Assembly: GCA_039715185.1 (NCBI GenBank)
Contig: JBDLIA010000024.1
Span: 1-40,569 of the forward strand
Reading direction: 5' to 3'
DNA length: 40,569 bases
DNA from: Gemmatimonadota bacterium
Lineage (GTDB): Bacteria > Gemmatimonadota > Gemmatimonadetes > Longimicrobiales > RSA9
Part shown: one piece after another, positions 17,006 to 26,326 of the stretch
Layout: each line of letters starts with the position of its first letter
Numbering within the stretch: the stretch's first letter is position 1
Position numbers and translations under genes: made by a program
Notes under the pieces: generated by a model
Database searches by the model: none
Told to the model about the DNA's origin: nothing
Seen by the model: only the letters and a program-made list of their open reading frames with translations

Positions 17006-19156
17006 GTGGCGGCAGGCGCCGGCTCGGGCGGCGGGCACCAGCGAGGCCGCGACCTGCCCGTCATCAAGGGCCGCGGCACCAACGTCAGCCCGGCCGGGCG
17101 TTTCGAGCGCTACGCCTTCGAGGTAGACCCGGAATCGATCGACCCGGACGGCCCCGGCCCGGCCACCGAGCTGATCGACGACCCGTCCCGAAGCATAGTC
17201 TCGACCAACAACAGCCCCGACGTAGGTTTCGACGCCAGCGTGAACCCCTACAGGGGGTGCGAGCATGGGTGCGTCTACTGCGTGGACGGGGACACGCCGG
17301 TCCTGATGGCAGACGGCGCGACCAAGCCCATGGCGGCGATCGAGCCCGGGGACGCGATCATCGGGACGAACAGGGACGGCTGGTACCGGCGGTATGTGGA
17401 GGCCTCCGTGACGGATCACTGGAGGACGACCAAGGCGGCCCACCGCGTTACCCTGGCCGATGGCACGGAGCTGATCGCCGGAGCCGACCACCGGTTTCTC
17501 ACCCTGAGGGGTTGGAAATTCGTTACGGGCAGGTCACAGGGTGCGGGAAGACGTCCGCATCTGACAGCGAACGACAAGCTCCTCGGCACAGGTCGATTCT
17601 CCAACCGACCGGGCGGCGGCGAGGACTATAGACTCGGCTACCTGGCGGGCCTGATTCGCGGTGACGGCCGCCTCGCGAGCTACCACTACGAACGCGAGGG
17701 CCGCGCGCACGGCGACCAGCACCAGTTCAGGCTGGCGCTCGCCGACGATGAGGCCCTGGATAGGGCTGCATCGTTTCTGCGAGAGTTCGGAGTCGCGACC
17801 ATTCATTTCGGCCTCTCCGCGGCGACCGAGGCCAGGCGCCGGATCGACGCCATACGGACCAGCTCCCGCGACCTCGTCGATCGCATTCGACGCCTTATCG
17901 AGTGGCCTGCGGAACCGACTCCAGCTTGGTCAACGGGATTCCTGGCGGGCATCTTCGATGCCGAAGGAAGCTACTCGGGTGGGATACTTCGCTTTTCGAA
18001 CACCGACCCGCGGATAATCGACGCGACCCGGCGGGGCCTTTCCCGGCTCGGACTTCCGTACGTCGTGGAGGACGTTCGGCGGGAGCAGGGCCGGCAGGCC
18101 CGCGGCCCGCTGCGCGTGGTCCGCGTGCGCGGCGGACTGAAGAGCGCCCTGGCCTTCTTCCACGCCACCGGACCGGCGATCCGCCGCAAGCAGGTGATCG
18201 CCGGGAAGGCGCTGAAGAGCTCGGCGCCCCTCGGGGTCGTATCGATCGAACCGCTCGGCCGCCGCGAGCTGTTCGACGTGACCACCACCACCGGCGATTT
18301 CATCGCCGACGGAGTGGTGAGCCACAACTGCTACGCTCGCCCGACGCATGAGTATCTGGGCTATTCGGCGGGCCTCGACTTCGAAACGAAGATCCTGGTC
18401 AAGCGGGACGCGCCGGCGTTGCTGAGGAAGACGCTGTCGTCTCCGCGCTGGCGGCCGCGGCTGGTCGCGATGAGCGGCGTCACCGATCCTTACCAGCCGG
18501 CCGAGCGAAAGCTGCGCATCACGCGCGGGTGCCTCGAGGTGCTGAGGGATTTTCGCAATCCCGTCGGGGTCATCACCAAGAACCACCTGGTCACCAGGGA
18601 CGCGGACGTGCTCGCCGGGCTCGCGGTGCATGGAGCCGCGGGCGTCTACCTGTCGGTGACGACGCTGGACCGCTCCCTGCAGCGCGCCATGGAGCCGCGC
18701 ACGTCCAGCCCCGAGAGGCGCCTGGAGGCGATCCGTCGGCTGGCCGCCGCCGGCGTCCCCGTCGGCGTCATGGTGGCCCCCGTGATTCCGGGGCTGACCG
18801 ACCACGAGGTGCCGGCGATAGTGGATGCGGCGGCCGACGCGGGAGCGCGCTCGGCCGGCTGGATAATGCTGCGCCTGCCGCACGGAGTGAAGGAGCTGTT
18901 CGAGGATTGGCTCGAGGCCCACCTCCCGGACAGGAAGGCTCGCGTGCTGAACCGCATTCGCGAGGTGCGCGACGGAGTCCTGAACGACCCGAAATTCGGC
19001 CGCCGGCAGCGTGGCACGGGACAGTACGCCCAACAGATCGGCGCGCTCTTCGACGCCGCGGTGCGCAAGGCGGGCCTCCCGGGAATGCCCGACCTGTCTG
19101 CGGCCGCGTTCCGCGTGCCGGATCCGGCGGGCCAACTGGGTCTGTTCGGGGCCTGA
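17006..19156 (+). CDS. PA0069-type radical SAM protein interrupted by an intein
   Basis: A 716-codon gene; removal of the 350-residue intein leaves a 366-residue radical SAM protein. The N-extein (LPVIKGRGTNVSP, SIVSTNNSPDVGFDASVNPYRG) and C-extein (CYARPTHEYLGYSAGLDFE, MSGVTDPYQPAERKL, RGTGQYAQQ) match the PA0069/Rv2578c group, related to spore photoproduct lyase and often called SPL-family. The [4Fe-4S] motif CxxxCxxC consists of C85, C89 and a third cysteine, which is the first residue after the intein (codon 442). The function of the family is unknown; DNA repair is often suggested. The start is taken as GTG 17006, 2 nt after the M20 gene; no ATG is available close by. The frame is open through the whole intein with no stop, so precursor synthesis is possible. 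Confidence 0.92.
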   Translation: MAAGAGSGGGHQRGRDLPVIKGRGTNVSPAGRFERYAFEVDPESIDPDGPGPATELIDDPSRSIVSTNNSPDVGFDASVNPYRGCEHGCVYCVDGDTPVLMADGATKPMAAIEPGDAIIGTNRDGWYRRYVEASVTDHWRTTKAAHRVTLADGTELIAGADHRFLTLRGWKFVTGRSQGAGRRPHLTANDKLLGTGRFSNRPGGGEDYRLGYLAGLIRGDGRLASYHYEREGRAHGDQHQFRLALADDEALDRAASFLREFGVATIHFGLSAATEARRRIDAIRTSSRDLVDRIRRLIEWPAEPTPAWSTGFLAGIFDAEGSYSGGILRFSNTDPRIIDATRRGLSRLGLPYVVEDVRREQGRQARGPLRVVRVRGGLKSALAFFHATGPAIRRKQVIAGKALKSSAPLGVVSIEPLGRRELFDVTTTTGDFIADGVVSHNCYARPTHEYLGYSAGLDFETKILVKRDAPALLRKTLSSPRWRPRLVAMSGVTDPYQPAERKLRITRGCLEVLRDFRNPVGVITKNHLVTRDADVLAGLAVHGAAGVYLSVTTLDRSLQRAMEPRTSSPERRLEAIRRLAAAGVPVGVMVAPVIPGLTDHEVPAIVDAAADAGARSAGWIMLRLPHGVKELFEDWLEAHLPDRKARVLNRIREVRDGVLNDPKFGRRQRGTGQYAQQIGALFDAAVRKAGLPGMPDLSAAAFRVPDPAGQLGLFGA
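17279..18328 (+). other. Intein with LAGLIDADG endonuclease domain in the radical SAM protein
   Basis: A 350-residue in-frame intein. It begins with cysteine (CVDGDTPVLMADG, block A) and ends VVSHN, followed by cysteine as +1 nucleophile. Block B is present as IAGADHRFLT, but with Gly where the usual TxxH has Thr. Two LAGLIDADG motifs, LGYLAGLIRGDG and TGFLAGIFDAEGS, both retain their acidic residue, so the homing endonuclease may be active. The end has LFDVTTTTGDFIADG (block F). Removal joins CVY to CYARP and restores the CxxxCxxC iron-sulfur motif. The boundaries are given by the conserved terminal residues and by the extein alignment and should be exact. Confidence 0.93.
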
Positions 19157-24159: not shown

Positions 24160-26184
24160 TCAGGAGGGGCGATCCACGGAGGGCACCGCGCGGCTCATCT
24201 CCTCCTCCACCGAGGCGGCGTCCCGCATGGAGGACATGTCCAGTTCGAAGTCGGGGCGGGCGGGCTCGACGAGCTTGGCGAGCAGCTCGCGGCGCTCGCG
24301 CGCCGACAGCCCCAACTCCTTGAGTTCGTCCACGGAGAGCGCGGCGCCGGACACCGCGCGCAAGCCGGTGTCCTCGTCCGCCTCGACGAGCCGCGCTATC
24401 GCGGCGCGCTCCATCCGACTGAGCGGCGCGGACGCCAGCCCGTAGTCGACCCAGGCCTCGTAGCTCAGGGGCGCCACGCGCTTGACCATCCCCGCAATCA
24501 CGCCGGCGAAAGCCCGGATCTCGTATTGCGCGTGCGGATCCACCCTCAACGTCAGGAAGTGCAGCAGGTTGTGCAGGTTGATCTTCCAGTACCACTGGGT
24601 ATAGGTCGACACGGGCAGGTCGATGCGGGCGATCTCCCGCGCCACGTCGTTCTCCACCAGCCAGCCGTAGGTGTCGCTCGCCTGGCGCCGGATCTCCTCC
24701 CAGCGTTGGATCGCCTCCTGTCGAAGCTCGGCCGACGCGGCGCCTTCCTGCCGGCCCTGCTTGTTGTCGGGGCTCTGTAGCGAGAAGTGCTCCGGTTCGG
24801 GAGTGTAGAACAGCAGCGGGAGCAGCGAATAGCGGGCGCTATACTCGTTGATGCTGTTGTGGGTGACGATCCCGTTCGCGACGAAGTTGTGGTGGGGGCC
24901 GGTCACCTCCAGGTCGAACGTCTCCTTCACTCCCACGAATTCGAATGAACGGATCCGGACCACGCGGGGCACCGTCAGGCGATTCCAGGCGATCCGTGGG
25001 CGCGGCTGATATTCCGCCTTCACCGGAGGACCGCCGAGCGCCTTCACGTGATCCAACTCCCGGCCGGCGATGTCGCGGTGACACGGGCCGCAGAGGGTCG
25101 TGAGATTCGACTCGTCGCGCGCCAGATCGACATCGGCCCAAACCGGAACGACGTGGTGGCAGTGCAGTTCCGGATGGTGCTGGCCACAGAGCTGGCACGT
25201 CCATCCGTGACGCCGGTGCACGGATGCGGCGCGCTGAGTGGTCCACCGGCCTATCGACTGCCGGCCATCCGCTGTGCCGCCCCGCCAGAAGTTGCCGCCG
25301 CCGCGACCGGGCTGCTGCAGCGCGTGCCGCGCAATCCACTTCCGGATTGTGTGATAGGAGCACGAGCACTGCTCCGCGAGACTGGCGATTGAGCGTTCGC
25401 GCTCGACGTACTCACGACGTAGCCACTCCGGGTCCCGGTACAACGCCGGCACCAACGTCTGCGTGCCGTTGACGTGAACCAGGTGCTCCCCGTCCGTCCA
25501 CACCGCCTTGCCGCCATGCTCGTGCAGGCCGGTGGCTTCGCGAAGGGTCTTCCAGCCATCGGCGAACATGAAGCGATGGTCGGCCGTAGCCTCGATCGCT
25601 TTGCCGTCCTCGAGGAGCATGCGGAACACCGGCTTAGAGCCGTTTCGGAAGACGTCCGCAACCCTGGTGTGACCGAGCTTGCCGCTGGACTCGTTCAGAT
25701 TCCGGGCCCGCATACCCCGCACCCGGCTACGCTTGAAGTACGGATCCCGCTGTTTGTCGGGCCGCGTTCGGTTCCTCGTCGGCTGGAACTTCGCCCACAG
25801 CTCCTCGAGCGTCAGCTTGTAGAGCTGATGGCCCCGCCTACCGATGCCACCCGGAAGATCGAACCAGACCTCGGTGTCTCCGGCGAGGCAGGCGGTCCGG
25901 TGCCGCACCCATTGGCGCGCCACGAACATCGGCATGGAGCAGTGGAACTTGAACTCCACCATCTCGCTGGGCGTGGTATGCAGGTGCCGCCGCAGGTAGC
26001 GGACCAGCCCCCGCGTCTGGCTGCGCGCGCGGGTGCCGTACCCGTAGCTGACCCGCGCGGCCTGCTCGACGCTGTCGTCCCCGCCCATGTAGTCGACGAG
26101 GGACACGAATCCGTGGTCCAGGACCGGGAAGTAGCCGCCCAGGATCTCCTCGGCGGCGGGGTTGGTCGGGCGGCGCGTGTCCAT
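24160..26184 (-). CDS. thyX: FAD-dependent thymidylate synthase ThyX, interrupted by an intein
   Basis: Makes dTMP from dUMP using methylenetetrahydrofolate, FAD and NADPH. The gene encodes 674 residues; without the 345-residue intein, 329 remain, about 80-100 more than most ThyX proteins because of a long C-terminal tail after GVIAGMVKRVAPLSYEAWVDYG. The ThyX signature RHRxxSxxxxSxR is split: RHRTA (94-98) is followed by the intein, and S444-INEYSARYS continues. Splicing gives RHRTASINEYSARYS. The flanks (TPSEMVEFKFHCSMPMFVARQ, NLHNLLHFLTLRVDPHAQYE) are canonical. I chose ATG 26184; the open frame continues to 26274 but runs into the palindromic element. A promoter with no leader is proposed at 26194-26222. 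hemY starts 1 nt downstream. Confidence 0.96.
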   Translation of the reverse strand: MDTRRPTNPAAEEILGGYFPVLDHGFVSLVDYMGGDDSVEQAARVSYGYGTRARSQTRGLVRYLRRHLHTTPSEMVEFKFHCSMPMFVARQWVRHRTACLAGDTEVWFDLPGGIGRRGHQLYKLTLEELWAKFQPTRNRTRPDKQRDPYFKRSRVRGMRARNLNESSGKLGHTRVADVFRNGSKPVFRMLLEDGKAIEATADHRFMFADGWKTLREATGLHEHGGKAVWTDGEHLVHVNGTQTLVPALYRDPEWLRREYVERERSIASLAEQCSCSYHTIRKWIARHALQQPGRGGGNFWRGGTADGRQSIGRWTTQRAASVHRRHGWTCQLCGQHHPELHCHHVVPVWADVDLARDESNLTTLCGPCHRDIAGRELDHVKALGGPPVKAEYQPRPRIAWNRLTVPRVVRIRSFEFVGVKETFDLEVTGPHHNFVANGIVTHNSINEYSARYSLLPLLFYTPEPEHFSLQSPDNKQGRQEGAASAELRQEAIQRWEEIRRQASDTYGWLVENDVAREIARIDLPVSTYTQWYWKINLHNLLHFLTLRVDPHAQYEIRAFAGVIAGMVKRVAPLSYEAWVDYGLASAPLSRMERAAIARLVEADEDTGLRAVSGAALSVDELKELGLSARERRELLAKLVEPARPDFELDMSSMRDAASVEEEMSRAVPSVDRPS
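24856..25890 (-). other. Intein with HNH endonuclease domain in ThyX
   Basis: A 345-residue intein at residues 99-443 of the precursor. It starts CLAGDTEVWFDLPGG (block A, Cys-1) and ends FVANGIVTHN with the penultimate His, followed by Ser+1. Block B is canonical: IEATADHRFM with T-A-D-H. Its endonuclease is of HNH type: CQLCGQHHPELHCHHVVP, then ESNLTTLCGPCHRDIAG with two CxxC zinc knuckles. Before it lies a helix-turn-helix-like stretch (SIASLAEQCSCSYHTIRKWI) that may help recognise DNA. All key residues are present, so splicing and possibly homing should work. It belongs to a different intein subclass from that at 17279-18328. Confidence 0.93.
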
Positions 26185-26193
26185 GAGGCGTCG

Positions 26194-26222
26194 AATAGAC
26201 GCGCGCCGCCGGTACGTGGCAA
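26194..26222 (-). promoter_or_regulatory. Promoter of thyX-hemY, probably leaderless
   Basis: On the minus strand, TTGCCA (26222-26217), a 17-nt spacer and TCTATT (26199-26194). The -10 ends 9 nt before ATG 26184. There is no Shine-Dalgarno sequence. The arrangement is the same as for blaI-like and hemE genes. Confidence 0.5.
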
Positions 26223-26242
26223 GGAGCGAGCGCCGGCTCGCT

Positions 26243-26326
26243 CTAGTGTACCGTTGCAGAAGTCCCGTAGGCATTCGGCCCGCGCTGCGCCTCAGTGCAC
26301 ACGGGACTTCCGCGCCGGCACACTAG
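26243..26326. mobile_element. MITE-like palindromic element, copy 2 (full length)
   Basis: An 84-nt element with CTAG at both ends and 26-nt imperfect terminal inverted repeats (20 of 26 matching) that share TGT-x-CCG, then GAAGTCCCGT. It is inverted relative to copy 1 at 5252-5324. Its right CTAG contains the TAG stop codon of the PDZ protein gene (26323-26325, minus strand). The left end lies 59 nt upstream of the thyX start codon and just 20 nt beyond its proposed -35 box. Transcribed, the inverted arms would form a long hairpin and could act as terminator for the PDZ gene. No open reading frame lies inside. Confidence 0.68.

Follow-up and report, generated by a model that had tools for sequence, protein, structure and literature searches.

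Inteins that interrupt the cysteine motif of radical SAM proteins are already curated at NCBI, where the NCBIfam model NF038136 describes an "intein-containing Rv2578c family radical SAM protein". MoaA of Pyrococcus abyssi, which also carries an intein, is a radical SAM enzyme. Splicing of the P. abyssi MoaA intein is controlled by a native disulfide between Cys-3 and Cys1 (PMC3922620; PMC10663303), and in the mycobacterial intein DnaBi1 splicing is stopped by oxidation of the catalytic cysteine (PMC6195587) and blocked reversibly by zinc bound to that cysteine (PMC7360933). In the SufB intein, a conserved histidine at position -5 assists N-cleavage (PMC8891592). The locus described here lies in a 40,569-nucleotide stretch of DNA from a Gemmatimonadota bacterium (hereafter the window). 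As in the proteins of NF038136, a homologous, full-length intein occupies the same place in the radical-SAM cysteine motif; however, the host half in the window is of the PA0069 type (NF033668), and the whole protein scores below the NF038136 cut-off.

The host gene is read in two parts on the + strand. The N-extein of this PA0069-family radical SAM protein occupies positions 17006..17278 and matches NF033668 from 17066; its start was taken as the GTG at 17006, the longest open reading frame beginning at an ATG (16901) inside the upstream gene. The C-extein, assigned to the same family by profile search, occupies 18329..19156 (+). Together the exteins score 455 bits against NF033668 (rSAM_PA0069), exceeding its cut-off of 360, and the C-extein part alone scores 382.7 bits. 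Direct reading of the + frame gives NPYRGCEHGCVY, then CVDGDTPVLM...FIADGVVSHN, then CYARPTHEYLG, with no stop as far as 19156, intein included. The insert comprises 350 codons, from the C of CVDGDTPVLM at 17279 to the N of FIADGVVSHN at 18328, and is flanked by GCEHGCVY upstream and CYARPTHEY downstream. CEHGCVY (17258..17278, +) supplies the cysteines at -7 and -3, the first two of the CxxxCxxC motif, and Cys+1 (18329..18331, +) supplies the third after splicing. Nine genomes of the same family contain an intein-free gene in which the motif is uninterrupted at the junction point, and the DNA of several of the empty alleles compared is continuous at TAC|TGC or at synonymous codons. Because the empty alleles read through the motif there, both intein boundaries are fixed by alignment, and they fall exactly where the initial annotation had placed them. 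Its proposal that the +1 cysteine has a double role, first as a splicing nucleophile and later as the third motif cysteine, is likewise borne out by the reading and the empty alleles.

Reading, profile matches, alignment and an AlphaFold2 model agree on the nature of the insert (17279..18328, +), which extends from Cys1 to His349-Asn350. Profile searches matched LAGLIDADG models to it, as well as intein-splicing models with scores below their curated cut-offs. Two LAGLIDADG motifs were located by alignment, LAGLIRGDG at intein residues 122-130 (17642..17668, +) and LAGIFDAEG at residues 222-230 (17942..17968, +), the latter with a PF14528 match over cut-off, and the acidic residues of both motifs are retained. 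The AlphaFold2 model has a mean pLDDT of 93.7; a structure search returned PI-PfuI and VMA inteins as its best PDB matches, and the endonuclease part matches the I-DmoI domain with a TMt of about 0.7. The insert is thus confirmed as a class 1 intein with a Hint fold and a LAGLIDADG homing endonuclease domain.

The class 1 residues found in the window intein are Cys1 (17279..17281, +), H71, D333, H349-N350 and C+1. Cys1, Block B His71, Block F Asp333, His349 and Asn350 are invariant in an alignment of 70 of 70 complete inteins at the site, for which the search patterns partly require Cys1 and Asn350; with a pattern leaving residue 1 free, this residue was still Cys in all of the matches (58/58), none of them having a non-Cys residue there. 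Since C1, H71, D333 and H349-N350 are shared without exception by 70 inteins, chance is excluded as their source. The Thr of Block B TxxH, a common but not obligatory residue, is absent from the window intein (Gly68), and across the 70 inteins this position is Ser in 59, Gly in 10 and Thr in 1. Among relatives, dN/dS of the intein was 0.07-0.31 in 15 pairs, with purifying selection on intein and C-extein alike, a pattern consistent with selection to keep splicing. A histidine also stands at -5 of the junction, in GCEHGC of the N-extein (17264-17266, +). The Mycobacterium tuberculosis SufB intein is similar in having an iron-sulfur protein as host and an N-extein His at -5, and by that analogy the histidine of the window may aid splicing; SufB, however, is a cluster-assembly scaffold rather than a radical SAM protein, and its insertion is not in the motif interrupted here. 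In one relative, Geodermatophilus obscurus (L154), a frameshift lies close to the 3' end of the intein that occupies the corresponding radical SAM site; the sequence is in error there or the precursor is broken.

Comparison with NF038136 shows that the arrangement in the window is known already and only its carrier is new: many bacteria have an intein of this family at the identical position, and NCBI curates the family. The isolated window intein scores 223.5 bits against this model (model positions 76-334, covering the whole intein length), and the model is also matched by each of the 33 relatives in the alignment. The complete precursor scores 494.5 bits, below the curated cut-off of 700 set for the Rv2578c host, the probable reason being a host half of the PA0069 type instead of the Rv2578c type. 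A scan with site patterns, using one genome per species, returned at least 119 stretches. Among the matches listed, at least 78 carry an NF038136-lineage intein at the exact site (at least 67 complete, at least 10 cut by the end of the stretch and at least 1 frameshifted); at least 36 others are empty and at least 5 unrelated or unclear. The carriers among the matches listed include members of Actinomycetota, Pseudomonadota, Omnitrophota, Binatia and Trueperaceae, and CYARP C-exteins like that of the window host this intein in other phyla as well. PA0069-like C-extein hosts with an intein of this lineage, besides the window, are L048, L051, L119 and L159. The intein of the window belongs to the NF038136 lineage, and the window is one further carrier. 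The initial annotation, which took an intein at this site to be unrecorded in this radical SAM family, is corrected on that point: the curated model already describes the site, covers homologous inteins at the same junction, and the arrangement is widespread. None of the papers in the library searched combines Rv2578c or spore photoproduct lyase with an intein.

Carriers are distributed unevenly. In the order of Amycolatopsis, about 51 of 299 sampled genomes carry the intein (58 matches, 7 of them empty by sequence), and in the phylum of the window it was found in 3 of 390 genomes. These three carriers are the window itself, with a full intein of 350 aa, L039, with a 200-aa intein that has an internal endonuclease deletion, and L015, with a mini-intein of 149 aa. 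Rarity together with three states of decay within one phylum is as expected of a mobile intein. Intein lengths in the rest of the set cluster at 137-168, 261-310 and 328-350; among the matches listed, the identity of the window intein to others is at most 58%, and in the intein tree the window copy adjoins a Pseudomonadota copy (support 100/90). Judged from these sequences, patchy presence and stages of decay form the pattern that would be left by a homing intein spreading across phyla and then decaying. Carriage of the intein by a phage or plasmid was considered and rejected: no relative of the window intein was found in the viral contigs searched, and the plasmids and phages searched gave weak matches only, at or below about 37% identity, and no close copy.

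Several neighbouring cases were also recorded. The inteins of four carriers of the Actinoplanes group (L111, L155, L074 and L161) are 291-301 aa long, form a long separate branch and have no recognisable second LAGLIDADG motif; their endonuclease domain may be different or rebuilt. In a Bacteroidetes MAG (L104), GCEHGCIYCFLYETPMNIG is followed by a stop after 22 residues, and no C-terminal half was located further downstream; this is either a truncated gene or an assembly break. The window itself contains a second intein, 345 aa long (24856-25890, -), within a ThyX open reading frame (24160-26274, -) and 6.5 kb from the radical SAM intein. It has Cys1, Ser+1 and an HNH nuclease domain, and splits the FAD-dependent thymidylate synthase at RHRTA|SINEYS.

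On the evidence of sequence comparison, a full-length class 1 LAGLIDADG intein of the NF038136 lineage, mobile and capable of splicing, has very probably inserted itself into a PA0069-family gene, within its radical-SAM cysteine motif. In the proposed course of splicing, Cys1 would take over the N-terminal peptide bond, Cys+1 would attack the resulting thioester, and Asn350 would cyclise as the exteins join, yielding an enzyme with uninterrupted RGCEHGCVYCYARP. The endonuclease would carry the element into empty alleles at the conserved site and would then decay. We propose two reasons for the persistence of the intein: it splices, and at an essential cysteine no deletion other than an exact one would be tolerated. 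All that was observed is explained by a selfish intein in a conserved position; that the intein splices in this cell, that its endonuclease homes and that it has no regulatory role is what we infer.

A regulatory role was nevertheless weighed, beginning with the unspliced protein. The precursor reads CEHGCVYC, so that Cys-7, Cys-3 and Cys1 of the intein themselves form a CxxxCxxC motif in which Cys1 stands at the position of the third cysteine. The earlier claim that the unspliced protein cannot bind its cluster does not follow, because the precursor keeps the motif through Cys1; loss of enzyme activity before splicing is likely. In one regulatory reading, oxidising conditions would drive Cys1 into a disulfide with Cys-3 (or with Cys+1) and block splicing, so that an oxygen-labile enzyme would be made only in a reducing cell, a scheme already put forward for the P. 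abyssi MoaA intein. The window has a cysteine at -3 that could pair with Cys1 (CEHGCVY|C; its presence is what was recorded); the logic of the site itself accounts for both cysteines, residue 1 is Cys throughout the free-residue-1 matches, and the MoaA disulfide and oxidised DnaBi1 are precedents. The comparison with P. abyssi MoaA rests on a radical SAM host, a native Cys at -3 and Cys1; however, host enzyme and organism are different, and it is for MoaA that redox control is known. By this analogy, oxidation-sensitive splicing at the window site is plausible. As a redox switch, however, the arrangement is unlikely: Cys1 is an ordinary class 1 nucleophile, it is the only cysteine within the window intein, no second one is conserved among relatives, and endonuclease loss and sporadic absence suit a selfish element. 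Moreover, conservation of Cys-7, Cys-3 and Cys+1 is no evidence of regulation or sensing, because the host enzyme fixes them, as the splicing mechanism fixes Cys1. An internal disulfide in the window intein is ruled out, as no second cysteine is present.

A broader proposal, in which the Cys1 of the intein rebuilds CxxxCxxC, the precursor binds a metal or cluster or forms a disulfide, and cells thereby couple enzyme maturation to their redox or iron state, is in our judgement decidedly improbable. In its metal form, iron, zinc or a cluster on Cys-7, Cys-3 and Cys1 would tie up the nucleophile and prevent splicing for as long as the metal stays bound. The directly read CEHGCVYC of the precursor and the zinc precedent in DnaBi1 speak for such a gate; however, the intein domain may turn Cys1 away from the two extein cysteines, and 350 residues inserted into the loop of the barrel should perturb the site of the cluster, making a gate of this kind very doubtful. 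A reading of the insert as a decayed element that no longer splices and inactivates the gene, which the frameshift in L154 and the replacement of Block B Thr/Ser by Gly in the window could suggest, is scarcely credible, given an intact frame, the presence of all other catalytic residues and both LAGLIDADG motifs, the purifying selection that acts in relatives on both intein and C-extein, and Gly at the same Block B position in 10/70 inteins.

The window itself adds one carrier, from a phylum in which the intein is rare. The significance of the site lies in a single cysteine that serves first as a splicing nucleophile and later as a cluster-motif cysteine, which makes it a natural test bed for claims that inteins act as sensors, and full, decayed and mini-inteins in many carriers at one junction allow comparison.
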